64,000 nucleotides of DNA from Branchiostoma floridae (Eukaryota > Chordata > Leptocardii > Amphioxiformes > Branchiostomatidae). Below, piece after piece: positions 1 to 47,067 of this stretch (the stretch's first letter is position 1; each line of letters starts with the position of its first letter). The position numbers were made by a program, and so were the translations under genes. A model generated the notes under the pieces. The model saw only the letters and a list, made by a program, of their open reading frames with translations. It ran no database searches and was not told the DNA's origin. The stretch covers positions 5,105,469 to 5,169,468 of the forward strand of contig NC_049982.1 in the NCBI RefSeq assembly GCF_000003815.2, in the 5' to 3' direction.

Positions 1-1499
1 TACTTCAACCCTTGTCCCGATAACGGGACATGCGCAGACATCCCGGGCGCCGTCCAGTGTACCATTTGTCCTGAGGGGTCGTCTGTGGACAGCTCCCTGT
101 GTGTGGTTATTGAAAGTAAGCTCCAAGTGAAGTATACGATACATACTTCTTTTGAACATATGTTTAGTTGTACACTGTCTTGCTCACACCAAATGTTATG
201 TTTTGAAATCTGTATTGAAAACACAAGTTAATTGCATCATGCTGTGTATTCGTTTGTTTCCCATAGCCGGTAAACCATGTGCACACACCAGCTTTGTTCA
301 GTTTAATCGATTCTCTAGAGGTCTTACAACAGAAACAAGCGCTTTGTGCATTGTATTTGTCCACGTGTGCCTGCCGTTGGCATCCTCACATATTGAAAAA
401 AATCCCCTACAGTTCCCTTGGACCCATGCTCCTCCAACCCCTGCTACCCTGACGTCACCTGTGACGTAGCTGGTGACGTGTACACCTGCGGATCCTGTCC
501 TGCCGGGATGACTGGTGATGGAGTCAGTTGTGTTGACATAATTGGTAAGTAGTGTTGTGCTGTTGATGAAACGTTCATGTAAATGACTCACAAATGTAGC
601 TTATCATAAAGCCTTATAACATTAAACGATTCGTACAAAATCACGTTCTTGCTCCGTATATCCGTTTGAAGTGATTTGATATCGACAAGCTCGATTGTTA
701 TAGCCGTGCATCAATTGAAAAGAACCTTTCCTGCTCAAACGTCTATTTGACTTCCACATGTTTTTCCTTCCTTAGACTGTTCATCTCAGCCGTGCTACCC
801 GGAAGTGACGTGTACAGACGTACCAGGTGGACATGAGTGTGGGGACTGCCCACGAGGCATGACGGGAGACGGAAAGAACTGCACTCAGGATCCTGGAGGT
901 GCGTGTGGTGTTTGTATGATCTTGGCATGTTAGACTCTTGGCTCGTAGGCAACCAACCTAGAGACCAGACTGGCTAAGGCTGATAAGAAAAATGCTCAAA
1001 AACAAATAACACTTTTTGATTTGTGATAACACGTTTAGACAGTATCTCAATGATATATCTTTTTCTCTCCAAATGATATTTTAGTTATTCCCTCATTTTA
1101 CGGTGGTCGTCTTAGTCATTGTAATCTCTGTTGAGGAGGGCAACCTACGAGGGCAACTTGCCACTGACCATTTAGTTTCATTGCTGAACACTTGTCGAAA
1201 AGGGGGATTTTTTCCGGAGTCATCCGAGATCAATTTCATGCTTAATGTTATGTCTCTATGCAGTTCCGGACCAACAAGGGTCCAGCTGGTACCAGCAGCC
1301 TGCATACATCGCGCTGTTGTCCGTAGGGGCAGTCGCCGTGGCTGCAGCTCTGATCGGAGTCGCTGTGTGGCGCGTCAAAGCACACAACGCCACCAGGGGC
1401 AAGGTGGGAGATCTGCCGCTGGAGGAGAGGAGGAAGACCGACGGTTCCAGAAGTGTCAATGAGGAGGAAATATTGGACCAGGATGACGAACACGAATAG
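1..1499 (+). CDS. VWD/EGF-domain membrane protein, copy A (3' part only)
   Basis: This is the 3' end of a gene that starts left of the window. The exons I read are 1-115, 413-544, 776-898 and 1264-1499. All junctions are phase 1 with AG/GT borders, and the stop is TAG at 1497-1499. The first three exons are cysteine-rich EGF-like modules ([12 protein letters not shown], then [12 protein letters not shown]). The last encodes a juxtamembrane QQGSSWYQQP motif, a hydrophobic span (about [21 protein letters not shown]) and a charged cytoplasmic tail of about 45 residues ending DQDDEHE. The order matches the last exons of copy B at 21963-23432 and of copy C at 36188-37110, so this is a third, tandem paralogue. 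A surface role in adhesion or ligand binding is inferred from the modules alone. The missing N-terminal part should hold D8C and VWD modules. Confidence 0.85.
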
Positions 1500-10400: not shown

Positions 10401-13400
10401 TGTCGTTAGGCTTTTGTGAGGTATTTTTTCTCAATCAGGTGTATGGTTATGTGGTGTTTTAACCTCCTTCGTCTGACAGTTTTTTTTTTAAGACAGGGAG
10501 CAGCTGTCGCTAGCTCCAAGCAGATATTAGGCATTAGCTACGTACACTGCATTCATTTAATTATTGCCAAGTTTTATAATGAATAACTGCCTGGACATAC
10601 AAAGAAACCGCAATTAGATACAAATCATGTGTATCAGGTGCTTATTTGAATAATCAATGAAATGCTCAGTTATTAACGAGAAGTTTATAAATCTACTGCA
10701 TTTGTTGTTGATAGCACTCTCAATCATGAGTCACATGTAACCGAGAGGAATATCTATATAGATGATAATTTTGCAAATATATATATAATTAAGACCTGAT
10801 TTGCCTAATAGGTAAGAAATTACTTCTGTAGTGGATAATGATGGGAATTTTATTATCATGGCATTTGGAAAGAACATCATTAGATATAAATCATGCATCA
10901 GGGCCTCATTTACATAATCTATGAGAAAATGCTGCAATATCCTTCTTTGCTAAGATCGAATGTTCTGGAAATGCTATAAGCATGGATTTTACATAGCTTT
11001 GAGAATTCACAAGCGGATAGCTCAAGAAGGATGAATGGATGCCTTGAAGACATAATATGATCTACCTCATGATAATGTGACCTACCTCTTGCATAGTTAA
11101 TGAGGAAACGTAACAACCCCCCCCCCCCCCCGTGTTCAAATATAGGAATTGGCATAGGTTTCTCATAAATGGAGGGCCATTTTAGATTACCTACACACCT
11201 AATAGAGCATCATTCGGATGACTGATGAGAAAGTGCTCTGCGATAACTTTAATGAGTATTACATTAATATATCATGCGAATGTTATACTTGTTCAATGAT
11301 CCGTGCAAATCAGGTTGACATACTTTGCACAATTGCGAAGGTATTGGGTCGTTGAACTCTAGTGTAATATGGAAGCCAAGTCATACAGTTGTTTGACTGG
11401 CGCCTTGCACCTTATCTTTCATGTAGTTACTGAGTAACAAGAAAAATACATTGTTTTTGTGATCCCGCGGCCCTTGGATAATGTTAAGTACATGTATGTT
11501 TGGTCTTTGTTTGTAGGTCGTGCCGAGTCCACATACATTGATATGAATGTCATCAAAGGTCCTACACACGGGTACGGTTCAAGAGATTAAAACAACGCAT
11601 TAAGCTGTATTTGTACAGAAAACAATTTCAATAAACTCTATTCGACGAACACGAAAAAGCACTCCGTTAATGCAATTTGAGCGGGAATTTTATCGCTTTT
11701 ATTCTATTTCTTATTTTTTCACCTGGGGGGTGGGCACAGACAGACTAACAAACGTATTATCAAATGTATAGGTCGATTCCTGAAACAGCTGAGTCAAGAC
11801 GTTGCAACAAAGGAACTACAAATCCAGATTTTTTCGTGTCATCAGTAACGCGCATGGTACTTATGGGGTGGGTACCGATACAAAACCGGTTTTTCTTATG
11901 GGACAAAACCGGTCCGGAAAAAAAATCGGTGGACGGCTGAATAATGGACCTGTTGGAAAATGAACAGATTATATGATCAGACATTCACACATTTTGGGTA
12001 TTACCGGTCGAAGAAAACAACAAGAGCCAAGTCGAGTAGAGTTTATAGTAATTTCTGCAAAGGTTTACAATCAATCGTAGAGAAGCAACTAGCCTTGTAG
12101 GATCTTAACACGCCAATGGGAGTCGAACACTCCACCAAACAGATTCCTTTGTAGTGAAATGGACCATTGTTTTGAGCATTACCCATTTACAAGTTTTCAC
12201 ATACTGAAGCTGGTCCAGGTTCAGGTCCGGACCTCTGGACTTGTACCGGACCTGTACCTGAACAATTATTTTGCATAAATTGGGAAAGACACTGTATCAG
12301 ATGTTAACATCAAGCGCACCTCAAGAATGAGACATCTGCTTAATCAATATAGGGCCAAATACTCAAACACTCATTAATAGGGCTCTAGTAGAAGCTCAAT
12401 AGGTCAACTACAAAATGAAAATACAAATTAAATCTTAAAATAATCTATATAGCACCCAAAACAAAGAGGATGGGGTGGTGAAACTGCGACTCACCAATTT
12501 TGTTCGTATCTTGTTACATACGTTTCCCGCGGGCATGCCAGGCAACAGTAAATTTGAGGAATCGGCCAGTCGTAATAGCTTCCCAGTAACAACAGCTACC
12601 CTTCGTGTTTTCACAGCTGTAGCCTTGGGTGATCCATGTCAGACTTACCAGGCCCTTGACGAACCTTTAAGGAGTGTCGGTGCCTTGTGGACAGTGACCG
12701 ACACAGCTCTGTGCGACAGCAGCCTGGAAACAAAATGGTACCGATTCGTCAGCCCGGCAGGAGGGGTCATCCCGACAAACTGTTCTGTGCTCAGAGCAAA
12801 CAGCTGTTCGACTCTTGGACCCATTTGGATGAAAGGTTAGCATTCTGTGATGTTGAAGTACTCTCCAAGCAGAGGTTAGGCTCCGGCTGTTTTTCCAACG
12901 TTTTTTTTTTGTCGTTTTTATCGGACTTTCTATTTTGTCACTTTTTTTTGCTGTGTCCAATCTAACAGGTTGAAGGACATTGTGAGACTCACTATATTGT
13001 TGATTCAATGAAATGTATGTGCTAGATGGGAACAGATATAGTGAGCAGTACATTTGAGTCAGTAATAAGAGTCTAAACCATGTTTTTGTTCATTCTTTAA
13101 TCCAATTTCAACATTCTTATTATTATAGATACGCCAATGTCAAGCATAGGTGCACTGAATTGAAAATCATTTATTCGACTTAGTCTAAATTATTTCGGAC
13201 TCTTTCTGTAACTTTATGGGATTACTAAGACCAAATCATCTGTTAAACTGGGTTCCCTGCTCTTGATCTATGGATAATTCCTTTATCTAGGAACTCTCCC
13301 AGCTACATCAGAGGGAGAAGTCATCAGACAGGCGTGCCGCAGGTCTTATGCCTCAGGAGACTGCGAGGGGTACTGCTGGGTCATCATGGTGAAGAACTGT

Positions 13401-16400
13401 GGCGACGAGTACTTCGTGTACCTGCTGCCCCCGACGCCTGGCTGTCCCGAAGCGTACTGTGCAGGTAAGGCCTGGTGACATTCTCCTCGCAATCGCAAAA
13501 TGATTAGGCATTTTTTCACGTGTCACACAAATTTATTTGTCTTGTCGGTGGTTGATTCTGTTTCTGCCTGCTTGAAAATTCTATGATATCAAAATAGTTC
13601 GATCACCTGCGACAAATGTGACCGCACCGTAAAGCAGCCTTATATGATCTGGCCGGGTAAATACGGTTTATGCCTTATATTTACATGACAGTGTCCAAGA
13701 TGGAAACAGCTCTGTGACAGGATTTAACTCTGATTAACTCTCACTAGCCTCCAGGTACGAGTAATCAATTAACTTGATTATTTGTTGACTGGCCGTAGGA
13801 ATTAACAAAACTTGAAACATGATGTGTAATATTCAATGTTCAACAGCATAAGAAGGGTGTATAGTTTGTACAAACGTATTTCTGAATGTTGACTTTATGT
13901 TACTGTTACATATGATGGGAATAGATAGCATAAACGTACAATCTCAATGGAATGATGGTAAAAGCGTTAACATTTGGCGGCGATATCAGAAGGAAGTCGA
14001 CAACAAGTATGGGTTGAACACAGAAACAACATGACTCTGTCATGAAAATACTTTTGTTTTTCTGCTGTGTAATATATATCCATTTCATTCAGGAACTGAA
14101 GTACCTTGCCCTCCCGGACAGAGCTCGGAAAACTTCGGGTTTACACCTGGGTGCTCAGGTTATTTCAATATTTTTATTGTTTGCTCAGAGTGTTTACTGC
14201 TTATAGAAAGCAGATGTAGAAATTGTATGTAACAAAGGTATGCGATTTCTTTTGTTTTATTCAAGAAAAAATAAATAAGTACATTGGTACAGATACAAAA
14301 AATGTGATTTTTTAACCTGCCAGTTACATCATCAAGGTACCATTTGTGACTGTACCCGCACTCATTTGCAGCAACTTTTCCAACCATTCAAATGAACCCT
14401 CGGCTGAGTAACGGTATCCTGGGTGGCGCTACAGTTGTCATGTTCTGTGACTTCGACCCTCCTCCCTGGAACAACCTGACAGTGGAGGTGTTCTGGACTG
14501 CCGACGGTGATGTCATCGACGAAACTACTCTAGACAACGGAGAGAGTCGGGCAATACTTGACCAGGATCAACTCAGACTTGGAATGGGAAAGAACGTGAG
14601 ATAACGCGCGTAGCTTTCAACATTACTGTGTCATATGTATGTTACAGTTCGATAGCACAAATCTTCACCAAAGTCTCCTAGCGGGGATTGAAACGCTTGT
14701 TTTCGTCATAACGGCTCATGGGATCGATTCCTGGCTTTTGTATTTGTTATCATCTCATAGTGTAATAGCAGTAGGCTAACTCCCCGCAACTAACCTTTCC
14801 GCAAGTAAAAAGCACAGACTACTTCCTCATTTTAAGTTTTACTAGGTAAGTTTCGCCTGAGTGCCAGTCTTTTTAGCTACAGTTCGTACTCTCTCTGCCG
14901 CTTCCGGACCCGAGGGTGACAAAGAGTTCGTACTACAATTAAGAAGGATGGCACCCAGGCTAAGAAAAAAACCAAAGTGACCATCACACGCACACTCTGT
15001 TACTGTTTTCTTAATTGTGTTTTGCATGTATATTTCCATAGATAGCGTGCAAAATCCGCGGGAGGTATAAAGATGGAGGGGCACCCGGCACTCTCGAGGT
15101 CAGCAACGAATTCTTTGCGGGAATGAAGGTCAGTAACTTAGGCAAACTTCTTTATCTTGTACCCAGTGATTTTACGATAGCCGTCAGAACTAGGTAACTG
15201 TCAAAACTTGGTAGCACTTAGAACCGGGTGGCTGTCAGACACCGGTAGGTATCAAAAGCCGTTGGCTACATCACAACCGGCTCCAATATCAAAACCGGTT
15301 ACTTTGTCTATTTTTGTCTTACTGTTGTTTGCTAGTATCCGTGTACTAGAAAGATATAACGTAGATGGATAAAAATCAGATGGCATTAATTAGATACTGT
15401 ACGTACTAAATGGTGCGACAACGTTCTTACGAATTGCTATCACACCCATTCAATTTTTTTCTAGCCCCGGTACCAGCCTTTTCAACCTTACTCCTTTCTC
15501 TCGGTCGCTTTGGCTATGGAAGTGATAGAGAGACTCTGTTGAGCTTTATTTTCCGCCAGACCAAATACAATAAGCACGACGCAGCTGTCAGAAACAGGTA
15601 GCCATCAGAGACCGATAGGTATCAAAAACTGATGGCTATATCAAAAGCGGTTGCTATATCAGAAACCAGTAGCTGTCAGAAAACTGCTTAAGGTTGTAAA
15701 GGAGTTCGGCGTAGCTAATTTCTGTCCCGTAAACGGTCGTTGCCGGCGATGCCAGACAAAATGCATATATGTGGTATTTTTTATGCACGCTAAGTGTATC
15801 AGCACTGCCTGCGCACACTAGACTTTTTTTACTCGAGTTCCAACCGGAGTTGATGGATTTGTCCTTATTTTTTTTAAACATTTATTGCGATACTGTCGTT
15901 TATATGACATTGAACTACTTTATATACTTTTTTGCTTCTTGTCAGCCCCCCAAAGTTATGAAACTCTGGGATATGGTGGGGTATGTGGCGATCGTTCGAA
16001 AAAGCGACGACCGTTTACGAGACGAAAAATTGCTTAATTTGCAACAGAAGCTGCCAATTTATACTAATGGTGGCACCTTCATTCTTCACAATTCTTGCCT
16101 GACAGGTCCTGAAAAAAGTGTTCACTGTTGATGAAGATGGACCAACAAACAACATACAGCTCCAACCAACACTGCCCCTAGTTTGCATTTCCCCAGGTCC
16201 CTACTGCTCTGTTTCGATACCGATAGAATTCGAGGAGGAAAGCCGTCGCGTTTGTCAGGGAGGTGACGTACCCCAGGTGGTAGCAGGCGGTAATTTGATA
16301 ATGGACAGTGATAACACCTGTTCGTTTTCATACGGCGTTGATGACTGGAACGGCATCATAGAGATCCCCGTGATGGCCGTTCGCGACGCCCAGATCGACG

Positions 16401-19400
16401 GTCTGGGGTACATGAGGGTCAAGTTTGGTCCTTTCTCGGCAGGGCAATCGGTCCTGTGGGATGGCTACCAGCTCGAGGATGTGGAAGTAAGTTTTGAAGT
16501 GAACCGTGAAACGCCAAACCAGCTAAACAAGCATAGAGCAAGCTGTCATTAACCAGAAGTAATTTAGTTAATCTCCAGTATATGCTACACTTATTAAGTA
16601 TTTAATATTGTCACTGAGACATTGGTCTAGCGAGTTTGATATACAAAATGTATATGATAGGATAAAATTGTATCCTCAATGAATTAAGTAAATCAATATA
16701 TGTCCATAGATTCTCTCCGTGGACAAAGACTCGATAGGAGATGTGACGTGCACGTCAACAGGCGACCCGCATTACACCACTTTTGATGGCCGGTAAGTAG
16801 AAAAACAACGATGTTGGACACCATGCATCTTCAATGTATCGTTTGGGTATTCTGGTCTATCATGATGTTGCTGTTGCCCTCTGAATATTTAAAATTGTTT
16901 TGCAGATACTAGACCTAGGTCTCGTAATGTTAAAAGACGCAATGTTTGAAAAAAGGGAAATACCTTTTGTGTATTGAGCTTTCTTTCGAACCTCGCACAG
17001 AGATGGACACTAATCTTGTACTTTCACCAGGTACTATCACGTGTATGAAGCGAACACATTCACTTTGTACAAGCACCGAACCCTGCCCATTGAGGTAAGT
17101 TTATGGTCATTATTCAGCGCAGTTAGTACCAGCTTTGCGTTGCTAACGGGGCAGTATATCATCACTTTGTAATAGCCGCCCCATTGTGCCTATATGCCCA
17201 TGTCCAACTACAGTCATGGTTACTACATAAGTGTGGCCATTGAACTATTGAACTAGGGTACTTCTACAGCTACAAGCGTAATCAAGGCTACACATTGTGG
17301 TACCTTCTCGTCATGTTGACCATCTTCGATGGGGGGAAAGATTTCTTCTTTCTTTAATCAGGCCAAAGTCAATGAGCGTGATGATGTCATCCATAAAATG
17401 TACCTGCTGTGGCTTACAGTCCTGCAGATTGTAACCCCGTCGGGTCAGCTTGTAAGGAGGCTTTGTGTTGAAAGCTTTTTTGTGGCATACGGGGGCTTGC
17501 ATTTCGCATACCTCAAGAATTGACCGTAGGTAGGACAGCTGGTAGCTAAACATCATCAAGATGAATCTATGACTATTGATGACTGCTATTGGACCCTATT
17601 GATATGAATGTACAGCTGTACAAGCCTAACGCAGTAAGGACGTTTGTGTTTCAGGTTCAGACTCGGACGAAAATGTGCTTTAGCCGAAATGGCCATGTCG
17701 CATGCAACTGCGGCGTCGCTGTCAGGTCTGGGAATGAGACATTAATTCTCAACAAGTGTGTAGGAGGTATCCTGAGGTACAACTTCCCTTTGGGCACCTG
17801 GACGATGTATGAAGGGTTCCTGGCCTCAAGAATTGATCACTATGGCCCCGTTGGGAACGACATCAGATTCTACAAAGAGAGCAATTCCCGCTTTTATGTA
17901 AGGGTTTTTGCATTGTTATGCTTAGGTGACATTTCCAAACCTGGGCCCGGCTGGGCAGCTTTCGGGAACGAAATAACTGATATAAAAGACACCAAAATGC
18001 ACAAAATGTAAAAAGAAGTAGCCTCTGTTGCAGTCTTTGAACTGGGCTGGTTTTTATTTTAGTGGTGGCGGTGTGTGTTGGGGGGGGGGGGGGTGGCGGG
18101 GGGCGCTGGTTCGCGATTTTCAACGTTGGCTAGGTACTCTTATACGTACATGTATATCGAGAAAAGGGATTAAGGAATTAACTAAGTTACCATTTAGGGA
18201 CAAATTGACTGATACCTTCTGAGTGGAAAAAATAGACTCTCAGACTGTGTTATTGACGACGTCCAGTCTCGTGCATTGCTCCATATGACATAACAGCCTT
18301 TCTAATTATCATACCCACAGGTCTTCCTGCCTACAGGAACACTCATAGACATACACGTGAGGGGAACTGACGCCGAACCGTACATGGACATCACCATCCG
18401 TCCTTCAGCCGATGACAAAGGAAAGACTCTAGGGTTGTGTGGAACATTTGACGGCAACATAGTAAATGACGGCCTTCACAGCGATCTGTCAACAATTTCT
18501 CCCATACCTTATCAGGGCGTAGTGATGACCAGTAGTGCCTTCGTGAATAGCTGGAAGTAAGTGCTGTCTTCATGTATGCATACGTGCTTTTCCCTTTCAT
18601 GGTCACGATATTTGGCAAGATAATCACTATTTTTGTTTGCTGTTACAGAGTTAGATCCCATAACGACATTTTTATGGGCAACGTTCGTCCATTACCGCCT
18701 GCTGATATTGAGCGCCGCTACTGTCCTTGTGTGACAGATGCTGTTCATGGACAGCATATCCAGTGTAAGACAAGCCCTGCCTACGACTGTGTAGCTGAGG
18801 AAATAAAGAGTCGGGGAGGCGTCCAACCGATAGAGAACAACAGCGCGCGCAAGAGACGGGACACCAGCTACAACGACGAAGTCTATGACGACGACATGTT
18901 CGGGTTCGAAGACAACACACCTGCCGGCCCTGTTGTAAGTTATATACGCTCATAACACTTGAAGTAGAACTTCCGTCATTTCACTTTGCATGTGTGGAAG
19001 TCACAATGCACTATGTTCGAATCAATTTTCTGCATTATCATGTCCATATAGCAAAAGAAACATTTTACTGTCATTTCTGATCCACGGTTGGGGAGGGGTC
19101 TATGGCACGACAAACTCAACATTCAATATAGTTTTTAAAAGAACTTTCCTGCTCCTCGTCATCATGTTCTTAGTTCCTAATAACGATACAAAACAATGCA
19201 AGTCATCTTTATCAACCTTTATCAGATTTATCAATCTCCATCAGATTGAGACTTGTCTCAATGAGAGTGTGTAACAATTTAACCCTATTCAGACCGGACT
19301 TTTTTTAGCATTGCTACATGGGGATTTATTTTTATGACGGTTACATCTTATTCATTTTCCTGCTGTTGCTAGTCAAGTTGGTGTGATGGACAAGTGTCAG

Positions 19401-22400
19401 ACCACCGGGTGTTCGAGTGTGCAATATTTGTATCATTTCAGGCGCCACCTTCCTGGCCTGCACCTAATGGGATGACAGAAGCTGAGGCCAGGGCGTACTG
19501 CCAGGACAACCTGGTGAATTCTCCATCTGGGAAACTGTGCACGTCAATCCTTGGAGACTCCATGGACACATCATCAATGGTCGAGTCGTGCGTCGTTGAT
19601 ATCCAGGTGAGATTAAAGTACTACGTGATACTTTATGGTACACATTTCTATTCAATGTCACTGAAATGACGTCAAAATTGCTTGTTGATGTCGTATCCAG
19701 ATGAAAAAAATGCTTGTCATATTTAGAGTTACAGTTGTCATTAATATCATAGTTCTTCATTACGAACGTGATCACATCCGATTACAGTTTGTTAAAAATT
19801 GCTAACAGTGCTATCTTTGCTCTCAGGCTACCTGCGATACTGTGTTTGTGCAGACCGCAATCGCCTCGTTGGAATCACGATGTTCCGACGTCCTGTACAA
19901 AAACCTGACCTATTGGACAAGCGACATCAGCAACGTGACAGGCAACGTAACATCCGAACCGCCCTCATTCTTCTTCGAAACGGTCTCCTGCCCTAATAAC
20001 TGTAGTGGCAGAGGCATATGTGAGAAGGGAGAGTGCGTCTGTCAGAGGGGGTTCGAAGGCCCGTCGTGCTCTATAGAAACAGACGCGCCGCCGAAAGCAT
20101 ACTTCATCCCGAAGGAAGGTCTGTGCGACATCAACACCCGGCCGTGCGAACGGACTCCTGTCATCGGGAAAGATTTCCTGCAATCAGGAAACTTGACGTG
20201 TTCTCTACAGGCAGCACAGGTAAGATAAGAACTAAAAAAAGATACCACATGTGAGTCGTAGTAGTAGATACTGGATAGTATTGTGGGCCCAAGATCTTGG
20301 GGTCGATGTCCAAGACTTATAATTACAGGAAATTACGACAGGAGAATGAGAATTTATTACAGGAGAAAAAAGAAAATTAGACGTGATGGTGATAATAAGC
20401 AAGTTAGCGGTTCTGTTATGGTGTGAGTTATCAGCACTTGATATCTTTATGCTATTTTCCTCAGGTCGACGAAAACGGCGTACATCTTCTTTCCATTGAA
20501 AACATCACCACCACAGCCACGTTTGAAGATTCGTCACGCGTCATCTGCCCCCTTCCGCCGTCTCGCGTCAGAAGAAATACTGCAGCCGGACACAGGACAA
20601 CAGCCGAGGCGACACTCGTCTCCATCAGTAACGACGGTGTGCGCTTCAGTCCCCCGGTCCTGCTCATCACGTATGACGCCGTCTGTCAAGACTGTAACGT
20701 CACCGGGTTCTGTGTTCTCAAGGTGGGTGTGCCGTACGTTTTGAAGTATTATTTCCACTTTTAACTCAGCTACCTATACATGCATTTTTTTAGCCATGAC
20801 TCATGTTGCATTGGAATTACTACTACATGTGCGGCATTGAAGCAACTAATGATAATGACTTCATTTAGCTTAGTTCTAGTTGCTTTTGCGTTTTACACAG
20901 AACAACTCCTGTGAGATAGACGGCACGTGCTATGCCTATGGAGACACTCAGATCGGCAACTGGTGCAGGCAGTGCCTCCCGTCAACCAGCGTGTCAATAT
21001 GGAGCGACCGGCGAAGTACGCAGCTTTGAGTCTTTTTGTAAAAAAAATAGCAAAGACTACGCGTTAGGTCCCTTAGAAATAAGATGTTGATTATATAAGC
21101 GGGAATAAATACTAGACAAACGTAATGTGCCCGGGTAGAATGATTTTCTACTATCACACTTGGACCATAAAAGGTGATTTCAACAACGGCCTGTACGTTG
21201 TAGAACGTCACCGAACGCTGCAGACAGTTGATGCTGTCCTGTCACTCTTTATGATATACAATGGTGACTATAAATCTTAAAACAATATTAGTTTCACTTT
21301 GCATCCATTTTTCACAGACAATGCACCACCTGTCTTTCAACCAACCGGCAACATCATCGCCTTCATCAACCACCAACTGGATTTCATCGTAAAGGCAGAG
21401 GATCCGGAAAACCGGCCCCACCTGAGCTACTCTTTTCCCGGAACACCACCTGACCCAAACATGTCTCTGTCTAGTGATGGCCGACTGAAGTGGACACCTA
21501 GACGACATTCAGACATCATCATCAACGTCGCAGCTGCAGACGAGTGCGGTGCGAGTTCCACAGAGTCACTCACAGTCATGGCCCGCGACTGTCCGTGCCA
21601 AAACGGCGGTTCGTGTCCTCCCTTCGCGCTGGACAGTCCCGATAACATCACCTGCACATGTAACGGTACCGGCTTCACGGGTCAGATGTGTGACGTGGAT
21701 GTGGACGAGTGTTTGAACAGCCCGTGTGACCATGGAGTCTGCAGCAACAACATTGGGAGCTTTCAGTGCGACTGTGAGCAGTACTACACAGGTAGGGCAA
21801 ACCACAGTTTACGTAACGGGCCAGTTACCATTATAGAACGGGCCCATTATCAGAGTTATGCACAAAATAAGGTGTACAATATTTGATCTATACATTATTA
21901 ATGTCACTATATTTTTTTTTTCACAAAAAGAAGTGGACAACTAATACTACTCGTCTCCACAGGTCCTCTGTGTGACCAGGAGACGCCATGTTTCTCCTAC
22001 CGTTGCCCTGACAACGGGACATGCGCAGACATCCCGGGTGCCGTCCAGTGTACCATCTGTCCTGAGGGGTCGTCTGGGGACAGCTCCCCGTGTGTGGTCA
22101 TTGAAAGTAAGCTCTGCCATTATATCATATTTTTGACATATATTGAGATGAACTAGATAAACATGGGCTACTGTATAAAAGCAACATAGTAAAAATGTTC
22201 TGAAAGATCTTAACATCCGTATTTCAAGCGACAAATTATCACAACATCATTATATGTGTTTATCAATTACTCTTTTTGTCTGCATGCCAAGTGTACGGGG
22301 TCAACGTGACTTCTCAAAATGATGAAATATGTATCTTTCTTTAAAGTTCCTTTTGAGCCATGCTCGTCCAACCCCTGCTACCCTGACGTCAGCTGTGACG

Positions 22401-23432
22401 TAGTTGATGACGTGTACACCTGTGGACCCTGTCCTGTCGGGATGACTGGTGATGGAGTCAACTGTGTTGACATAGGCGGTTAGTAGTGATATGCTGTTGA
22501 TGTTGTTCATCCAAAATGTTGATTGTAACATAAAACGATGCTTTGTCGCTGCACATATTCTATTAAGACTATTTAACCTTTTCCCTGCCGCCTTATCCAG
22601 TAACTAATAGAGACTTATTAGCCAAATGGCTACTTCAGCATGCTATATGTTAAAGAGGTTAAATAGCGGCAGGCTTAACCAAGTCTGATTGTTATATCCT
22701 AGATTTAGCACTCTTTAGTGCGAAAATTTGACTTTCACAACTCGAAACCAAGTTCACCTTTCCCCAGACTGTTCGTCCCAGCCGTGCTACCCGGAAGTGA
22801 CGTGTACAGACGTACCAGGTGGACACGAGTGTGGGGACTGCCCACATGGCATGACGGGAGACGGGAAGATCTGCACCCAACAGACTGGAGGTATTATTGC
22901 TGATATCTCCCAGTCTCCGTGCAGATATACCAGTGGCAAGACAGTGTCCATCGACCAAAAGAGTAATCCATTGGCCCCTGAAGGTGAATGGATACTGTTT
23001 CGGCCCATGGATACTGTCTTACCAACGGCAGGTCTGCTTGGAGATTAGGTATCTTCCTGGGAAAGTGACAAAGATTTCATGGATGAAGCATGCAAAACCT
23101 GAGTGTTGAGTTTTTAAAAACCCTAAAGATATCTACTTCGTTTTGCGGTGTCTGATATTATTGTTCTGGTCTTTGAATACATTTGCTATATTCTCCCATT
23201 GTTGTACTCTCTCATAGTCACAGACCAACAAGGATCCAGCTGGTACGAGCAGCCCGTAAACATCGCGCTGCTGTCTGTGGGAGCAGTCACCATCGCTGCA
23301 GCTCTGATAGGGGTCGCTGTGTGGCGTGCCAAAGTGGGCTCCAGGGGCAAGTACAAGATGGGAGATCTGCCTCTCATGCCAATGGGAGAGAGGAAGAAGA
23401 GAGACGCCCTCGAGGATCACAAAGCTTACTAG
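4422..23432 (+). CDS. VWD and EGF domain-containing membrane protein, copy B (complete)
   Basis: I read 21 exons: 4422-4458, 12617-12835, 13291-13464, 14093-14158, 14372-14595, 15042-15128, 16106-16486, 16710-16792, 17031-17094, 17655-17897, 18321-18556, 18649-18934, 19442-19606, 19827-20219, 20465-20722, 20901-21015, 21318-21791, 21963-22106, 22347-22478, 22768-22890, 23218-23432. They total 4119 nt (1372 codons) in phase. Module order: signal peptide [11 protein letters not shown]; a D8C-like cysteine region with GDPC, about residues 14-143; a middle region; a VWD module, about 400-605 ([14 protein letters not shown], later GLCGTFDGN); a furin-type RKRR at 672-675; an EGF in exon 14; a cadherin-like stretch plus EGFs in exons 17-20; a TM helix, about 1317-1337; a 35-residue basic tail. 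The architecture resembles vertebrate VWDE but adds a TM segment. The first exon rests on a short but phase-correct signal peptide and is the least certain. It probably acts as a type I surface or shed extracellular protein; the ligand is unknown. Confidence 0.88.
4459..7164. other. Left part of copy B intron 1
   Basis: I see no gene here. The stretch is AT-rich apart from a GCTCGCTCGCGGC-type simple run near 6387-6435 and a short tandem duplication at 6891-7001. All reading frames are short and lack recognisable domains. Confidence 0.55.
6891..7001. repeat. 55-bp tandem duplication
   Basis: CTGTATCTATATAGCC recurs at 6891 and 6946. The sequence after each copy is also alike, including ACACACCAGCTTC in both. 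There are two imperfect units, in intron 1 of copy B. Confidence 0.6.
7165..9900 (-). mobile_element. Decayed non-LTR retrotransposon (CR1/L2-like LINE), 5'-truncated
   Basis: The minus strand encodes the end of an endonuclease domain (9594-9893, with [12 protein letters not shown] and [12 protein letters not shown]), then a reverse transcriptase (7887-9572, with [32 protein letters not shown] and a FVDDL catalytic box), then a C-terminal region (7372-7986). The frame is broken by an in-frame TAA at 9594-9596. A one-base loss in a run of T (7990-7994 on the plus strand) breaks it again. The 3' end near 7165-7190 carries an ATT-type simple repeat, as in CR1/L2-group elements. It sits in intron 1 of copy B, opposite to transcription. 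It is inactive as read. Clade placement within the Jockey/CR1 group is by motif only. Confidence 0.85.
9901..10430 (-). mobile_element. C-terminal fragment of a second, different LINE reverse transcriptase
   Basis: The frame at 9927-10400 encodes the thumb and C-terminal region typical of CR1-like reverse transcriptases: [19 protein letters not shown], then [20 protein letters not shown] and VQNQAARF. It duplicates the function of the C-terminal part of the neighbouring LINE (7372-7986) but its sequence is clearly different, so it belongs to another family. Its catalytic box is absent. The two fragments lie side by side in the same orientation, as if the element at 7165-9900 landed in or next to this older copy. 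Confidence 0.75.
10431..12616. other. Right part of copy B intron 1: repeat-derived DNA
   Basis: I see no gene. The AT-rich stretch at about 10560-11300 has TTTACATAATCTATGAG-like phrases that also occur in the repeat at 52301-53310. A run of about 16 C occurs near 11117-11132. Bases 11859-12260 resemble, in part, segments at 32560-32720 (inverted) and 36661-36735, so they belong to a dispersed element with a GGGGTGGG(T)ACCG end. Confidence 0.5.
15186..15690. repeat. Degenerate minisatellite in copy B intron 6
   Basis: Units like GGTAGCTGTCAGAAACC and GGTATCAAAA(G/A)CC recur many times at 15186-15310 and again at 15590-15690, with about 280 bp of other sequence between the blocks. Unit spacing is roughly 20-24 bp and copies are poorly conserved. 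Confidence 0.55.
17938..18010. repeat. Half copy of the inverted-repeat element found at 51359-51541
   Basis: This stretch (GGGCCCGGCTGGGCAG, then GGGAACGAAATA and GATATAAAAGACA) closely matches the reverse complement of the right half of the element at 51359-51541. It lies in intron 10 of copy B. A run of about 15 G follows near 18079-18093. Confidence 0.6.
22912..23047. repeat. Short TIR element in copy B intron 20
   Basis: The ends are imperfect inverted repeats: TCTCCGTGCAGATATACCAG at the left and the complement of CTTGGAGATTA-type sequence at the right. Inside each end, AAGACAGT(G/A)TCCAT is also inverted. The end motif ATCTCCAAGCAGA recurs elsewhere in the window, so this is one member of a dispersed MITE-like family. 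It starts only about 20 bp after the exon 20 donor. Confidence 0.6.
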
Positions 23433-27010: not shown

Positions 27011-34145
<7,135 letters not shown>

Positions 34146-36187: not shown

Positions 36188-39100
36188 CTACATTTCCACT
36201 GCCCAATCTTTGGCCAAGTTTGCCAGTTTCTTATGATCTACTTTTGAAGCATCGTCGTTCTTCTGTTCCTCCAAAGGCAGATCTCCCACTTTCTCCGTCA
36301 TGCCGTTGTGTGCTTTCATGCTCCACACAGCGACTCCAATCAGTACTGCAGCCACAGCGACAGCCCCCACAGACAACAGCGCGATGTACGCGGGCTGCTC
36401 GTACCAGCTGGACCCCTGTTGGTCCGGAGCTGCAGAGAGACATACAGTTTATGAAACATATCTTTGGTCGGTGACAAGTTGGCCCCGTAGGATAATGTTC
36501 TCGATCAGGGAGGTTATTGTGGGCCCCGTACGCGTCGTGAAATGAGGGAATGATATTAGAAAAGGACGCACGTCGCTCTCAGATAGCACGGCTATGGAAG
36601 TACAGCATTATTCAGGCAAGTAACGTCAGTCAACATCTAAATGTAAATATTATGTCACCAATAGGGGTGGGACCGAATACATCATCCGGTACAAAGCCGT
36701 TTTTTCTTCTTGAACCGGTCCGAAAATATCGAACCTGAATGTTTGTACATAGACTTTTGTAAAATATACACCTGTCTGGTGTTATCGAACAAAGAATGTT
36801 AAAAATCATGCTTTTCGGGTGTCAACTCTCAATTCCTGCCAGTGACGACAGCGGGTTCCAGACAGATTTGTTATGAATTACTTTTTTTTTTCACTCTAGA
36901 CTTTGCATCCAAGACTTTGTCATCTACGTATACGAATTAATCTTCGTGTGACATGATGTACCAAGATGGCACCACATTTACCTCCAGTATGAGTATCTTC
37001 AGTGCAGTTCTTCCCGTCTCCCGTCAGGCCATGCGGGCAGTCCCCACACTCGTGTCCACCTGGTACGTCTGTACACGTCACTTCCGGGAAGCACGGCTGG
37101 CACGAGCAGCCTTGGATGAGAAAAGAACAAAATCATGGAAGTCAAATAAATATGTAACTGTTATGTTCATTAGTATACATGTACGCTGCATATTCCCTCA
37201 ACATTGGACAACCAAATATCTAATCAATGTTATTGGTACTAAATCAATACAATGGAATCTGTGCAATCTTCTACAAAATCTTCTACAAAAACACGTTAAC
37301 TACACCTTTTCTGCACCACAAGACTTCAGTTACCCTACAACTACCCACCACGATCGCTCCATGTTGACACGTTAACTGACGGGTCACACTGTTTACAAGG
37401 ATTGCCAATTTGTGTTTCCCCACTGGCGTAGCAAGCACCGTCTATCTCACAGGAGTCGTTCTGTGTGTAGAAAAACAAACACGACACAATCATTTTCATC
37501 AGATGCTATAACTTCTGGATCTCCAACGCCAAAGCGCCAAAGATATGGTTAGTTCAGGTTTGTAGAAGTATCGAAGCCTACGAAAAGCACCTGTAGCCTA
37601 CAGAAAGCGAATGCTCTCTTACCCTGAGAACACAGAACCCGGTGACGTTACAGTCTTGACAGACGGCGTCATACGTGATGAGCAGGACCGGGGGACTGAA
37701 GCGCACACCGTCGTTACTGATGGAGACGAGTGTCGCCTCGGCTGTTGTCCTGTGTCCGGCTGCAGCACTCCTCCTCACACGGGACCGCGGGAGGGGGCAC
37801 ACCACACGGGCAAAGTTCTCAAATGTGGCCGCAGTGGTTGTTATGTCATTAAGAGGGTGAACGCCATTGTTGTCAACCTGGAAAAGCGAAACATTGTAAG
37901 AGTTGGAGTACCACTTGTATATTCATGGTACATTTCACATATTTCAGCATTATAGGCATGTGAGTTATCTATCTTAAAAGTAAAAGACTATGAGCAACGT
38001 GGAGCAACTTGACTACTTGGTCAGTAGCACCTCGTTGACTGCGTGTCAAGAACTTACAACCCCAAAACACGCTACCACCGGAAACAACACACACCTGTGC
38101 AGCCTGTAAAGAACATGTCAGACTCTCCGACTCCATGAAGTTCAGTCCGATGACGGGAGTCCGTTCACACGGCCGGGTGTTGATGTCACACAGACCTTCC
38201 TTCGGGATGAAGAACGCGTCTGGCGGTTTGTCTGATTCTATGGAGCACGAAGGACCTTCAAACCCCACCTGACAGACGCACTCTCCCTTCTCACAGGTTC
38301 CTTTCTGGCTACAGTTACCTGGACACGAGACGGCTTCGTAGAAGAAGGACGGAGGTGTGAGGGTGCCGTTGTTTGTCTCGTTGTTTTGTGCCCAGAAGGA
38401 CGTGTTTTTGTACAGCAAACCGCCGCAACTGGTTTCCATGGTTTCAACAGCAGTTTCTGCCCACGTGGTGTCGCCTGTTGCCTGAAGATGGCCAAATAAT
38501 AGCATCGACTAGTTTTTTCATGCTTATTGACCCGATGTAGAAGACGCAACAAAGAAAAGAACTTTGCAATGTCCTAAATTACATTGCCAAATATAAATGT
38601 CATTATTGAACTAGTTTAACTGTAATATCCAACACAAAAATTGGACTTACCCAAATTTTCGACTGATTTGGGTGAGTCCAACTTTTGTGTTGGATATTAC
38701 AGTTAAACTAGTTCAATAATGACTTCTACCAACACAGAAGAACTTTCAAGCTAAAATATAAATGTCGCTGTCTTGTAACATGTATCTAACATATTTAACA
38801 CACAGTGAATGAAATACATGTACTGAGATTTAATCATTCTTTGCTGACCTGTCAATGCCTTTTCTTACCTGGATATCTACCACGCATGACTCTGCGGCTG
38901 AAGACAGATCAATTTTGTTCCCAAGAACTGACGTACACAGTTCCCCTGACGGAGCCCCCGTCATAGCGTCCTCACAGAACGCTCTAGCTTCTGCCTCCGT
39001 CATTCCATTCGGTGCAGGCCAAGTGGGGGGATCCTGAAAGGGACAATTGTACCGGTAAGATACGCTGCACATGCAAAATTTACAGCAATAAGGACATCAG

Positions 39101-41595
39101 TTCAGTTCAGTTCATCCTCGGAGAGGTGACACCAGCGTCTCCACATAAGGACAAGATAACATCTAATATAATGAGATCTTGTAATTCGCCATTGGGCAAA
39201 ACTCACACTGTGACTAGTTTCTTAGAATTCCTTGTCAACATGCAACCCATTTGTCGTCTGAATGATAATTGTGGAAAAATGAAGTCATTATGTTTCAGTT
39301 GCTCACCACAGGAGTGACCGGCTCATTGTTGTCGAAACCGAACATGTCGTCGTCATAGACATCGTCGTTGTAGCTGGTGTCCCGTCTCTTGCGCGCGTTC
39401 GGTGGTTTGTCTACCGGCTTGGCACCTGCACTGGCCGACTTCCACTGACAGTTGAAGGCGTACGATGAGTTGCAACTCACTTCCTGGTGAGAGCCTTCAC
39501 TGCTGCATTCGCAGTACTGCCGCTCATCGAGAGGAAAAGGTGCCGGATTCACGCTGCCAGTGAAGAGATTGTCGTCATCTGGAAGCCTAAATTGAGTCAC
39601 GAAGAAAGTGTTATAAGATTTGGATATACTAAATGTGAATGATGCGAATCAGTGAAGGGTTCAACCGTATATCATTAGTGAAACAGCAGCGAAAAATAAA
39701 AACTCACTTCCAGCTTGTGACGAAGTCACTAGGGTTGCCCGCGTTGATTACCTGAGCGTGGCTAATGTGTGACACGGTCACAAGATCTGCATGAAGACCG
39801 TCGTTTGTCTCGTCGTCATCAAACGTTCCACAGAGCCCCAGAGTTTTATTGTAGTCGTCAGCGGAAGGGTAGAAAAATATGTTCATATACTGTTTGGAAG
39901 ATCCAACCAAGGTGATGTCCATCCATGATCCTGTTGGGAAGTAGACCTGAGAAAGACAAACGATTGCAAGTCAAGTCCAAAGATGGAAGTCAAGTCCGAA
40001 GTGCAAAATGCAGGTATACCAAACCTTTCGTCTGGTAGAAATTGTAATGTTTAGCAAAACTGATCGACCTTACCAAAAACCTGTGGCCGCCATTTTTGTA
40101 GTAGAAACGCGTGTCCTGTCCCACAGGGCCATGGTGCTGCATCAATGTGACAAGAGACGATTCAAACTGAACCCAAGAGCCTGTGGAGTAGCTGAACCTT
40201 TCAACACCGTCTTTGCACTTTGTGATGATGAAGACCTCGTTCCCTGCTCTGATAGCAACGCCGCAGTTACAGGCCACACTCCCGGCACCGCACATTTTCA
40301 TCCTGGTCTGAACCTTGGGACAGAACAGACTGTACTGTTATTTCCGATCGACCGACTGAATGACCAACTAAATGCATCACTTGGTAGTGGTAACACTCTA
40401 CGTATTTCATTCTGATAGCAACGAGAGATCCCAAAGGAATAATTCCACCAAAAAGATTGTCGCATAATGCTTTGTCTGGGTTACTTTTACTAGACTTTTG
40501 CTCGGTAATACGACTCTTTATCACAAAAACTATGCAACATTGTTGTAATTTGCTCAACCTACCTCAATGGGGAGGTATCTATGCTTCATCAGGGTGAATG
40601 TGCCAGCTTGGTAGATATGATAGTACCTAAGAATCGAACGAGATAACAAAGAAATGAAAGGACGACAGGGTTATTGCAAGCGCACCGCGTTGTTGTATAA
40701 CAAGGAAGTAATTGTATTTGGCGAAAATGTCTGTGTGTAGATGCTCTCATAGATGCTTAGAATCAACTGCCATTGGAGATGGCAAGGTACACAATTAACA
40801 CAAGAGTTACTCGTATATATTTTCTTTACCTTCCATCAAACGTGGTGTAGTGCGGATCTCCCGTGGATTTGCACACAACATCCCTGTCGGGATCGGTGTT
40901 ACGAGTGGTGACCTGAATACAACAAATGCTTAACGTTATAAGATATCTAAAAATGTTCCAACAATGAAATGTTTGTAAGCATTCAAATACACATTTTTTT
41001 AAAGTGGTGTAGCTTTTTAAAACTTTTTTTTCATCATACAAGCGATTGGAATGGACGGATATTGCAGATAATATATTCCGATTTGAACCAGGCGCGCAGG
41101 CTACGCGGTACAATGACAATGCTAGGCAAACCCATTCCATGCGAGATAAAACCATTCTCAATTTACAAGGACGTCCCCAATTTGGTATCCGTCCCACAGG
41201 GGAGCAGGATCAGCAGAAAACGGGTTGAATCCGATCTTCATGCGCCTCGCCCCGTCTGCAATGCAGTCACTGACGGCCTTCACCGGAAACTCAATGATCC
41301 CGGTCCAAGTGTCCTTGTCAAAATTGAGGCTGCACGTCTCCTGCACAGCCTCACTTTTCAGACTTCCCTCACAGAAGCGGTCAGCAGAAGAGTCGTTGGC
41401 CTTGAAGACGATTTGTACTGACAGCTTACACTGGCCCCACAATGATGCAATCTCTGTGCAGACCAGCGGCAGGGTAGGCTGGAGCTGTATCTGTTTTGCC
41501 TCACCTCCCTCCTCGATCAAGATATCCTGCGTAAGAATCTGTGGCGAGAAGTATTCAAAAGTCAACAAGAAGCAGTAGCATTGTATTTGTGTGTG

Positions 41596-41672
<77 letters not shown>

Positions 41673-44600
41673 TCTTTCAACTGCCAAAGTTTGGGCAGCT
41701 GTATGTAGCGTGAAAGACTCTCGGGCTCATTTCCCAAACAACACCACGAAATGCATCAAAACAAAAGCGAGTTTCTACCTTTACTCCGGCAAAGAACTCG
41801 TTGCTGATCTCCATCGTGTCAGGGTCTCCTCCGCCTTTGTACCTGCCGCGAACTTTGCAGGTGATCTGGAAAATATTGAGTCAAAAATATTTGTGACCTA
41901 AAAGTGATGCTCAATGATAAACAATAACCCTACACTTGAATACATGTATTCCATAAAAATGAACATGTACAGCTGGCTATGTGTATGTGACATTAGAAAT
42001 ACCTAAGTTTGCATCATCGTTAGATAATACATATATACTTGATTGTCATTTCAAGCACCTTGCAAACCGTAAACAAAAACTCCCTGAAGCAAACATAGCG
42101 AGCAGAAATTTGAAAAACAAACTATTGAATGTATTTTCATTTCTATTGTAGCGTTTGAAACGTCGGTCTCTAGCTGCATTAGAGTATTGATTCATTTGCC
42201 ACGGTAGCAACACCTAACCTTCACCAAAGTTAAAATCTATGAGTCACTGAGCAACAAGCTGATGTGAAGGAGTAAGTCAGCTTATGCTGCTATTTCTCAC
42301 CGTCTTTCCCATCCCAGCTATGAGATCATCTTGTTTCAAGATTGATCTGCTCTCTCCATTTACCAACACATCCTCGAAGATGGGACTGTTGTCGGCGACC
42401 CAGAAGACTTCGAATGTCAGGTTGTCCCAATGAGGACGGTCGAAGTCGCAGAAACAGCACGACTTCGTAAGGTTCCGTGCCATTAGTAAGCCTTGGGTTG
42501 GTCGTGATGTTGGGGAAGTTGGCTGTGATGGAAAATTTGAAACATTATTAAAATGTGGAGTTCCAACATTTTTCTTTCTTGTGCTTTGCACGGATTAATT
42601 GATCAGTCATCTGAGCACAAAGAATCTCTTTGCATGAGTTGAAAAAGATGTCAAGGTGCTGTACCCGTTGAGACATCAGCATGTCAATATCAGATTGGTT
42701 TGGAATCACTGGATTTTACAATTAGTCTTTCATGAATCAATCAAAGTTCAAGAAAACAAAACATAGACAGTGCCATGCATATTGCGATTAGACTGGAAGG
42801 CAGATTAAGTCCCAAATTTCATAATCGTCACGTTTGATTTTAGAAATGGAGTGAATCCATACAGCAACAATTTGCCCTTGTGATTATGCAGAAGAGCAAT
42901 TCAATTTTATGCATAGAGAGAAATGGCTATGTAGTCTAAACGATTCAAGCTGCAGCACAACTCTTACCTGAACAACCAGGTGTGAATCCGTAGTTTTCTG
43001 AGGTCTGTCCTGGGGGACAGGGCACTTCGGTCCCTTTTCAGGAAATGAAGAAAATAGTGGTTTATGTATAGTCAGGGAATTGTAAGCATTGTATCAGCTT
43101 GCATAGTTCTCATGGCAATCCTGTTATAGGTCTGCTCGCAGTTAGTACATGTACTGATATCCTTGCTATTGCATTTATAATCATTGAATTGTCTTTGCAT
43201 ACAGTATTCAATTTACGAGCAAGCATACTTTGAATGCTGAATTTCGTAACATATGGAATATGACGCAGAGACTAACGTGACCTTTTTTTTCTTTATTCAC
43301 AGACAGCAATTGCCGGTGTTGTGACCAAAGTAAAAATACTAGTACATCATAGACATAACATTGATACACTTTGTGAATCTGAATACAGTCAATCAAATTT
43401 TGTCCAAACTGTCTATCCTGCTGTAAAATTAGACATGTCAGCTTGAATCACGTGAATGCACTCAGGTTTTAAGCTCACGGTTTTACTGACTGTGTCAGTC
43501 GGTTCCAGAAGCGGGAAGCGTACGGAATGAAGCTGGGCTTGTATGTCTGTGTCCTTCAAAATAAATCTAATAAGAGTCTTCAGGACTTTTGACAACATGT
43601 CTCTGGCTCACCTGCACAATATGCTTCATCACAGCCAGGTGTGGGAGGTAGACGATAGACATAGAACGGCTCAGGGGGCCCAGGGCAATTCTTGACGTTG
43701 ATATCCCAACAGTTGGCCTCACAGTCTCTACTACTGAATGACCTGCGACAAGCTTGCCTTGTCACTTCACCGTCAGATATTGTCGGAAGAGAACCTATAG
43801 CATAGGGTGTGTATTTGACAAACTTAAGATCAAAGTTTCTTTCCTTAGGATTTGGTTGAAGCCTGAAATGCTATCTCATTATCCATAGAAACAAATCTCG
43901 TCTTCACATATATCAAGGGGAAACTACACCCTGTTTATTATATTACAATGCAATTTAGAGTTCCACAACCTCATACCTTTGTTAAATGATGTTAAGACGG
44001 CAACCTTATCAAGTGACGTGTTATAAATGTCTCTCATTCATTATAAGTCTCTCATTCAAATAATGTGCATATCAATTAATCGACTTGTCCACTTGAATAC
44101 ACCTTTCTCACGCGGCGGCCATCATAGATTGAAGACGAGGTCAATGAGGCAAACAAACAAAATTTATTTCTAAAGTCAGCTCCCATTTAGTATTTCCCCA
44201 GACCACAAAAATTTTCACAAGATCAAATAATAAATATTATAACAAGTGTTATGCACCGAAAGATGTAGCAATGTATTGTAGCATAGACTGATCCCACTGC
44301 CCCGTATGAGACGCAAAATAAAAACATAATAATGCAAATATTTGACGGACATGCAACCAAATCTCTTATTGGATGTTTTCCTAATTGGCAGGCTATCATT
44401 GGTTGAACTACTAATTATGATGGACAGTCTTTTGTTTGCCTCATTGAACTCGTTTTAGATCTATCATGGCCGCCGCGTGAGAAAGGTGTATAGCACAAGC
44501 TGTTCATCATGTAACGCTAGTTCACCTTTATCCGCAGGGTAACCTACATCCGTTGTCTTTAAACAGAGCATTTATGGGTCGACGGACTGTGGCTGCTATT

Positions 44601-47067
44601 ATGCATGGTTGCCATTTAAAGCCACTGCCCGTCAACCTCACATTCGTAAATATCCTGTTTTAAGGATATCAGGTCGTCTAATCATTGGGGGTTCTTATTT
44701 GTGGAAGGATGGCATTTTCAAGGGATGGCTTAGGCGTCGACTGCATTTAGATGCTTTATTCTGTGCTATCTTTGTAGTCGTCCGATACGACCTCTTGGAA
44801 GGGTCTCGTAAGCTCTGGTTTCTTAAGCATGCGTGTCTATGTGAGTCTATACGTCAGTTACTGAAGCAACTGGATCTGATGTTGGGTACCTTGATGACAC
44901 ACGGATACATACAGTGATACACCAACGCTCACTTGATTAACGTATAAATTTATGGAAGATAGTCCAAAAAATGGTCTGAAAGGTGCGATGGACGTTCATG
45001 ACTCACCTTTCATCCAAACAGGCCCGAGAGTTGAGCAGCTGCTGGCAGACAGAAGAGAGCAGTTCGTCGGTATCTCTCCCCCCGCCGGACTGACGAAGCG
45101 GTACCACTGGGTCCTTAGGCCGCTGTCACAACGTAACTGGTCGCCTGGACTCGCGACGCTGCCGGTGCTCCTGGAGGGCTCGTCCAGGGCCACGTAGTCG
45201 GTACATGGATCACCGAGCGCCACGGCTGTTAGAAAACAGTGTAAAATCTAAGCTGTACATATATTTTGCTTTGCGTATGCAGTAGGCCTAAGTAACAATG
45301 TAAGCAAATCATAAACTTGGAACGACTATCGTGTATTAAACCGAAGAATGTTGTGTCACTTAATTCCGATATCGATTGGAACGTAAATGTTCATCAGAAC
45401 AATAATACCCCAGCAATGCTACAACAGCGCTGCTGCCCGTCATGTAGCCCCGGTCGGGCTCTGAAGCCAGAAAGTTGTTACTGTGGACTACCGGTTAGGG
45501 GTGCCTCTTGGTGTTTTCCTGATTAGACCGCGTTTATTTGTCGCCGGATCCTGGGTTGATTTTAACCCCGAGTTAAAAATAAAAACATCCAGGGGCCCGG
45601 GCGTGCCCAAAATAGCCCTGTAGCCACGGGGTTTCCCACGGGGCACGTAAAGATCACGCCCGAAAATGACAAAGACAGTCCGATGCATGGGCAATAGGCC
45701 GCGGCATATTTTTTTAATTGCAGAAAAAGAGAAAATACAGTACAGGTCGGTACAGCCCTCAAGCAAACTGGCACTGAAGCGCATGTTGAACAAGGGATCG
45801 TAGGGCGGTCTGTGCCCTGCATGTTACGTGCTATACTTTTATAAAGCAGACAAATTGTGAGAAATGTTTGAGAGGCCACATATCTGCAGCATTACTGCAG
45901 CATTGGATCAGCCTTGCTCAGATGGAACGGACAGCAGCAGATGTGTGGAGTAGCAAGTGTGGAGAACAATGACGGCCAGCCTCAGCGAACACTGACATGC
46001 CGGTGAAGATGATGATGATGATCTGCATTCGCTGTCATTCAGCTAAGGCTTTGGTCCTAATTGCACAGGTGACCGGCCGGGCTCCAAAGCCAAATTGAAA
46101 TTGTCCCGCTGGACAATTTCCGTCGGATAAAGGGGGAGGGGGCGTCTAATAGTATGTGTTATCGGGTACCGGCTCACATACCCACAACTCCACCCGAGGC
46201 CCAGTCGTAATCAAATTTTAGTCTCTACCAGACTCCCACATGGCCGAATAGAAATAGTGAACTTTGGACAAGTTAAGAATAAAAGTGTACTTGGAGTTGC
46301 TTGGCCTAGGAGTGAACTGGCCGGCCGACGGAGGCCCTCTGGCCGGCCGACTTCCCTTGGGTACTATTGACTCTATTTGCCCAATTTCTACCATTTAATA
46401 GACCACCGATCCGCTTAGTCTAGTACTAATTAGTGGCTACTTACATTTATCCCGGCCACGGAGCCACGAAGGGGACACTGCCCGAAAGTGCAAACAAAAG
46501 CCCGTGAATTGCCTGCCCAGGGCAAGTTTAACCTCATGCAACACTCACACGAAACAAAGGATTGGACACATGACAACGATGTCAAAGAGACAGGGAGAGG
46601 AAGTGAAACCCACGACCTAGCTGTAGTTCGAATGAGCTTGGACTGAGTCAATATTTTCTTCATTCCCTTGCGTGACACATCGAGTCAACAATTGTACAAA
46701 CTGTTATTCTTCCTTCTGTCGACAGTTTAATAAGTTTTCCAATTCATCTTGAAATTTGTAAGCAGAAATCGACAGCAGTCTGCGAATAGCAAAATAGCAG
46801 GAGAAAAGGTAAATGTGGTGGTGGCAGACTTCTTCATGAGTACATATCCATGCAAACATAACCTATGGCAGTACCACTAAGCTTATATATGTTTGGTACG
46901 CGGGGTTGGTGGGGGGTGGGGGTGCGTTTGAATACTGAAGGTCGGGTATTAACTTAGATGGTTAATTATCAGGAGCCCATATATATATATTAGGAATAAT
47001 ATTATTAGTGGCACCTCTTATGAATATGAGGATGAAATGAACTGATCTATATCTATATCTATATCTA

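Follow-up and report, generated by a model that had tools for sequence, protein, structure and literature searches.

Probable recurrent homogenisation of a half exon among VWDE-like paralogues of Branchiostoma floridae

Two oppositely oriented genes of Branchiostoma floridae share 141 consecutive bases without a single difference, inside an exon whose remainder has diverged. The question raised by this locus is how so short a block comes to be identical, and whether the two genes concerned are its only holders. The earlier note on this DNA proposed gene conversion between the two inverted paralogues. The explanation that we favour, with a probability of roughly 0.85, is recurrent short ectopic (interlocus) conversion of a conserved 3′ half exon among at least six VWDE-like paralogues, resulting in patchy concerted evolution. 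In what follows, the window is the whole stretch of DNA that was analysed, 64,000 nucleotides in length.

The identical tract and the genes that carry it

Copy B, a VWDE-like gene, lies on the forward strand at 12617..23408, with homologous exons 1–20 as modelled and with uncertain first and last exons. Copy C, also VWDE-like, is inverted and occupies 36248..45225 on the reverse strand, where no counterpart of B exons 16–18 was found. The 3′ end of copy A (1..1442, forward strand) comprises EGF exons and an exon reading as a membrane helix. The tract of copy A is located some 1.2–1.4 kb upstream of the window at C4:5104086-5104226, and its exon 3 was not found, a gap of 100 Ns lying nearby. 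As modelled, each gene is incomplete at exon 1 and at its 3′ end. Exon 1 denotes the first exon that can be matched between B and C, and the exon that carries the tract, exon 15 of the earlier note, is exon 14 in this numbering.

Joined exons 1–15 of copy B matched the Pfam families VWD (E 2.6e-11), EGF_Teneurin (1.8e-8) and EGF_2 (7e-5), and copy B also showed a weak match to D8C_UMOD. It thus holds the combination of VWD and EGF-like domains by which the VWDE family is recognised; Ig_VWDE stayed below threshold in copy B (14.6 bits against a curated cut-off of 28.1, E 0.032), which is why we name the gene VWDE-like and not VWDE. The VWD and EGF-like domains, the weak D8C_UMOD match and the sub-threshold Ig_VWDE are common to VWDE and the amphioxus genes, whereas the latter form a multicopy cluster with a putative membrane-helix exon (exon 20, read by eye) after the EGF exons. 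The available part of PMC9117669 mentions VWDE together with its role in blastemas, and a search of the literature at hand found no paper joining amphioxus and VWDE.

Several other features lie between or beside these genes. Between copies A and B, at 7887-9572 on the reverse strand, an open frame carries a reverse transcriptase domain (RVT_1, 7.7e-22), and a 639-residue open frame with a 3′–5′ exonuclease domain (DNA_pol_A_exo1, 2.6e-22) is found just past the modelled 3′ end of B, at 24355-26274 on the reverse strand. A 27-base exact match joins the region of the exonuclease frame to sequence past copy A (2794-2820 / 25105-25131). Other repeats in the window are an exact tandem repeat of a 24-base unit at 31096-31213, a 41-base exact inverted repeat within copy C between exons 12 and 13 (38599-38639 / 38683-38723), and nested palindromes at 62187-62267 with units TTCCTGCAGGAA.

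The tract itself runs from 20580 to 20720 on the forward strand in copy B and is the reverse complement of 37625-37765, on the reverse strand in copy C, at 141 of 141 bases; the match cannot be extended on either side, and was the longest exact match in the window in a self-scan of both strands with 20-base seeds. In both genes it falls wholly within one coding exon with plausible splice sites (B 20465-20722, forward strand; C 37877-37623, reverse strand), stopping two bases short of the modelled donor site. In copy B this exon is an open frame with AG and GT sites, of which the 5′ part is diverged and the 3′ part is the tract. The claim that the identity extends to synonymous sites proved exact: within the tract, B and C use the same codon at all 46 degenerate positions where they encode the same amino acid, and in the other exons at 265 of 528 (Fisher 1.1e-13). 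The longest silent run of the pair was not equalled in any of 20,000 shuffles, under a simple permutation model applied to a pair picked, post hoc, for being extreme.

Outside the tract the two genes are far apart. Over exons 1–12 the B–C comparison gave dS 2.15 and pS 0.71, and this comparison shows that high synonymous identity is not a property of the genes as a whole. The first 39 codon columns of exon 14 are identical at 75 of 114 bases, with pS 0.73. At E ≤ 1, BLASTN found no match between the two copies of intron 14, and in intron 13 just 11- and 9-base matches on opposite strands, none on the same strand. The strongly different flanks described earlier are thus borne out by the introns; the upstream half of the exon is less alike than the tract, yet still aligns as homologous. 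GC3 is 0.70–0.78 in the tract core and 0.59–0.61 in the rest of exons 1–15, which is the direction expected under GC-biased conversion, and from a core of 40 codons, too few for inference, we draw nothing.

These values bear on the idea that B and C arose by recent gene duplication and then diverged quickly everywhere else. Related genes do stand in a tandem cluster here, as that idea would have it, but a dS of 2.15 over exons 1–12 and introns without a same-strand match stand beside zero changes in 141 bases, and we regard a young duplication as scarcely credible.

A basic motif, RVRR, lies directly before the tract and is similar to the RKRR of exon 11, beside which B and C have exact matches of 36 and 23 bases (18844-18903 / 39338-39397). 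Both motifs resemble what we take to be furin-type sites, and are candidates by motif.

Six copies and a conflict between trees

A search of the genome with the tract (513 Mb in 431 contigs) found six copies, all on C4 at 5.055–5.144 Mb and within 88 kb; the array was analysed with ten 10-kb stretches in addition to the window. Five of them (D, E, F, A and B) run in direct orientation, and C is inverted. The four copies other than B and C carry the block at 97–99% identity, copy A over the first 120 of the 141 bases only. Over these 120 bases there are 0–2 differences in all 15 pairs, and in the core 38–40 of 39–40 comparable silent codons are identical in every pair. No indels separate the six copies in this 3′ half.

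The rest of the genes tells a different history. In exons 1–12, silent identity between clades is 0.46–0.51 in all 11 pairs, and dS is saturated between clades (2.0–3.1) and 0.31–0.48 within them. The tree of these exons joins C and F with bootstrap 100, separates C, F and B from D, E and A (100), and places B on a long branch. The tract tree instead joins B and C (93), with F next to them (77), and thus conflicts with the gene tree: (B,C) at 93 against (C,F) at 100. The states 116T and 128G are found in B and C only and are lacking in F, the sister copy of C, while 134T is common to B, C and F; B equals C throughout the tract, whereas C and F differ at three sites. With copy A left aside, mean differences in the tract are 2.5 within clades and 3.4 between them, so that the clade structure is erased.

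Could the half exon simply have been held still? Purifying selection on its DNA or RNA, for example on an exonic regulatory element, would freeze synonymous sites with no exchange at all. The near-identity of the core in all six copies would fit, as would the encoded protein: the tract amino acids are the same in all copies except for two residues of A, and elsewhere variation is confined to the last residue, which falls just beyond the tract. However, constraint should preserve the proportions of the gene tree, and uniform slowing would shrink all distances alike. The similar within- and between-clade distances, the identity of B with C while C differs from F, and the conflict between tract and gene trees argue against it. 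Simulating evolution on the exons 1–12 tree under nine rate scalings, copy A being left out, gave a probability of at most 9.3e-5 for B equal to C together with at least three C–F differences, and of 1.1e-3 at best for the contrast within and between clades, the model again being simple and the pair chosen post hoc. Slow evolution alone explains the tract poorly.

The edges of the block differ between copies, which is likewise at odds with constraint. Silent runs start at alignment codon column 26–27 in the C–D, C–E and C–A pairs and at column 39 in the pairs of B with C, D, E and A, and copy A departs from the common block at base 120, 21 bases early. Such staggered edges are better fitted by several overlapping conversion events than by one frozen element.

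On both sides of the block, B is unlike C. Just upstream, B agrees with all other copies at 9–11 of 23–24 silent codons, where C, D, E, A and F agree with one another at 20–33 of 26–37. Downstream, the last codon of B exon 14 is A/D/E-like and not C-like, and B exon 15 (20901..21015, forward strand) agrees with A, D and E at 20–23 of 26–28 silent codons and with C at 15 of 26. The C-like patch in B is therefore flanked on both sides by sequence of another history. Since B is unlike every copy upstream and A/D/E-like downstream, it is favoured as recipient, and the last event probably copied C-like sequence into B, to judge from a few sites. A tree built from the 39 codon columns upstream counts against B as recipient, in that its long B branch stands next to F and C, though weakly supported (41, 64).

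The same flanks bear on whether conversion used a spliced cDNA instead of genomic DNA. The first codons of exon 15 are raised in silent identity (0.88 over 11 between-clade pairs), as if the block spanned the junction, which is what a spliced template would leave; in B, however, both exon 15 and the codon that closes exon 14 resemble A/D/E and not C. A block crossing the exon 14/15 junction, suggested by a silent run of 52, was rejected in view of the same B exon 15; the run extends across the junction because codons with differing amino acids are skipped.

In a further alternative, assembly or polishing used the reads of one copy to build or correct the tract in the others. It is true that the near-identity spans about the length of a short read, that the species is very heterozygous, and that runs of N occur inside copy A and past the modelled end of copy D. 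The window, however, contains no N, and the flanks of the six copies are different. One private substitution in the first 120 bases marks each of D, E and F, and copy A has a tail of its own. B is also non-C-like on both sides of its patch, and a simple chimeric join does not produce this arrangement. We consider an assembly origin unlikely.

Exon 14 is not the only homogenised part of the array. In the EGF-like exon 19, copy B (22749..22892, forward strand) agrees with C at 30 of 33 silent codons and with F at 30 of 32. Within the C counterpart (36992..37108, reverse strand), 54 bases match B exactly (22790-22843 / 37035-37088), and the A counterpart (769..900, forward strand) holds a 47-base exact match (787-833 / 22779-22825), the B stretch of which overlaps the B/C match. 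Across D, F, A, B and C, the eight comparisons between clades show identity at 28–32 of 32–38 silent codons in this exon. In exon 17, compared in frame, silent identity is 30/33 for B–D, 24/29 for B–A and 23/29 for D–A.

Exon 13 (B 19827..20219, forward strand; C 38095..38481, reverse strand), which encodes an EGF segment and a conserved 3′ block, is also raised between clades, reaching 0.70–0.88 in four 10-codon bins from column 80 when the 11 between-clade pairs are pooled, with copy E counted from its in-frame 3′ part alone. Setting aside four end bins of 11 comparisons at 1.00, the bins of exons 1–12 lie between 0.18 and 0.81. Exon 13 of copy E, outside the window at C4:5071969-5072365, matches two overlapping frames, one of which contains stops, and its alignment shows an apparent one-base insertion; either decay of this copy or an assembly error would account for the break.

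Conversion between B and C, as put forward in the earlier note, is thus upheld by extreme silent identity, sharp edges, differing flanks and the conflict of trees. What does not stand is the picture of a private exchange between two inverted paralogues, because six copies share the block and homogenisation extends to other exons and to a second group of genes.

The same switch in a second paralogue group

A search of the genome with the exon protein returned at least 19 matches, six of which are the array. Five further loci, L024–L028, form a second group, with three on C10 and one each on C9 and C5. L024 was taken in a longer cut as L036 and compared with L037–L040. At exons 6, 9, 10, 12 and 15, L036 is saturated against the other four, with silent identity 0.28–0.50 (exon 12 in two of the four pairs). 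In the 3′ half of exon 14, the silent counts against L037–L040 are 35/38, 35/41, 39/41 and 39/40, against 14–16 of 26–27 in the 5′ half and 7–13 of 23–27 in exon 15. Fisher tests with L024 were weaker for two partners (9.7e-3, 2.4e-2) and stronger for the other two (6.7e-4, 1.3e-4).

The pair L036 and L040, which lie on different scaffolds, has 41 mismatches in the first 126 bases of exon 14, one in the next 126 and two in the last three, a contrast at the changepoint that none of 20,000 shuffles reached. In the alignment, this switch point is only a few codons from that of B and C. An independent group thus repeats the same mid-exon switch, and the half-exon island is recurrent. As five of the six array copies are direct and the second group is spread over three scaffolds, the inverted arrangement is not essential. 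The second-group exchange would have taken place either between chromosomes or before the copies dispersed.

Other exons of this group are also partly homogenised. In exon 16, split at a motif chosen by eye, L036 is identical to the four at 16–17 of 35–36 silent codons in the 5′ part and at 65/75 to 77/78 in the 3′ part, and exon 13 is raised too (77/102 to 85/103).

The recurrence of the pattern in a separate set of genes speaks against an assembly origin. Exchange through cDNA, for its part, is disfavoured by L036, which, compared with the other four loci, is homogenised in the 3′ half of exon 14 and saturated in exon 15; we give it a very slim chance.

The wider family also returns to the question of constraint. 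Silent identity between groups is mildly higher in the 3′ half of exon 14 than in the 5′ half (1374/2829 against 576/1779, the same sequences being reused in many pairs), and, compared with the array, the outgroup loci L023 and L032 have silent identities of 0.69 and 0.67 in the 3′ half. Some silent constraint, or older conversion, may therefore have acted there. Other paralogue pairs nevertheless vary in the same half and do not show the mid-exon switch, with 16/29 silent codons identical between L029 and L031 and 31/41 between L033 and L034. Silent constraint or old exchange does not account for the 46 of 46 codons of B and C or for the conflict of trees, and constraint without exchange is, overall, improbable.

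A possible mechanism and its relation to known systems

Under recurrent ectopic conversion, the behaviour of this half exon may follow from its own conservation. It encodes the conserved segment SISNDG..FS...LL..YD.VCQ.C, and, being free of indels, would keep more uninterrupted homology than its surroundings, so that strand invasion between copies could start there. Repair would then copy some 100–180 bases until the heteroduplex meets diverged sequence, which would be the first half of the exon at one end and an unrelated intron at the other. Each event would renew the near-identity and keep the block a good substrate, and conversion could thus recur. We infer that meiotic repair is the process at work, that the conserved block has a self-sustaining role, and that conversion returns to the constrained, indel-free 3′ half as the stretch with enough homology left.

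In its broadest form the proposal is tentative, and we think it somewhat less likely to be right than wrong: the constrained half exon would be a long-lived, self-renewing conversion island, alone above the homology threshold, and re-homogenised in separate tandem and dispersed sets of paralogues. If so, 120–140 bases would be re-homogenised long after the rest of the genes had become saturated, and the domain would evolve as one unit across the family.

The findings suggest that paralogues otherwise saturated at synonymous sites can go on exchanging a block of about 120 bases by conversion. Where single exons are used for gene trees, dating or selection tests, such islands distort the outcome. 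With two groups whose switch points differ by a few codons, one can ask what determines the edges of a tract, and whether constraint itself sustains exchange. With a published pedigree recombination data set for B. floridae, described in the available part of PMC12500494, the question becomes directly testable.

The mechanism of conversion is already known; what is of interest here is that one half-exon island recurs. The accessible portion of PMC3924837 describes concerted evolution of multigene families, and in a search of literature available in part, nothing on conversion confined to exons or domains was judged close. To judge from those portions, the array resembles ectopic conversion and concerted evolution elsewhere in its short near-identical patches within diverged paralogues, its sharp edges and its conflict of gene trees. 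It differs in that the partners are old, with saturated synonymous sites, and in that the block is a recurrent half exon, one also found in copies that lie on different scaffolds; this pairing of old partners with a recurrent half exon is unusual in our own judgement, made without a survey. Allelic non-crossover (NCO) conversion in the highly heterozygous B. floridae genome offers the closest comparison of size: according to the part of PMC12500494 available, 90.9% of such events are under 200 bp, with a mean of 99 bp, which makes a 141-base tract one of ordinary size. Those events, as that part describes them, are meiotic and pass between parental haplotypes, whereas the partners here are paralogues.
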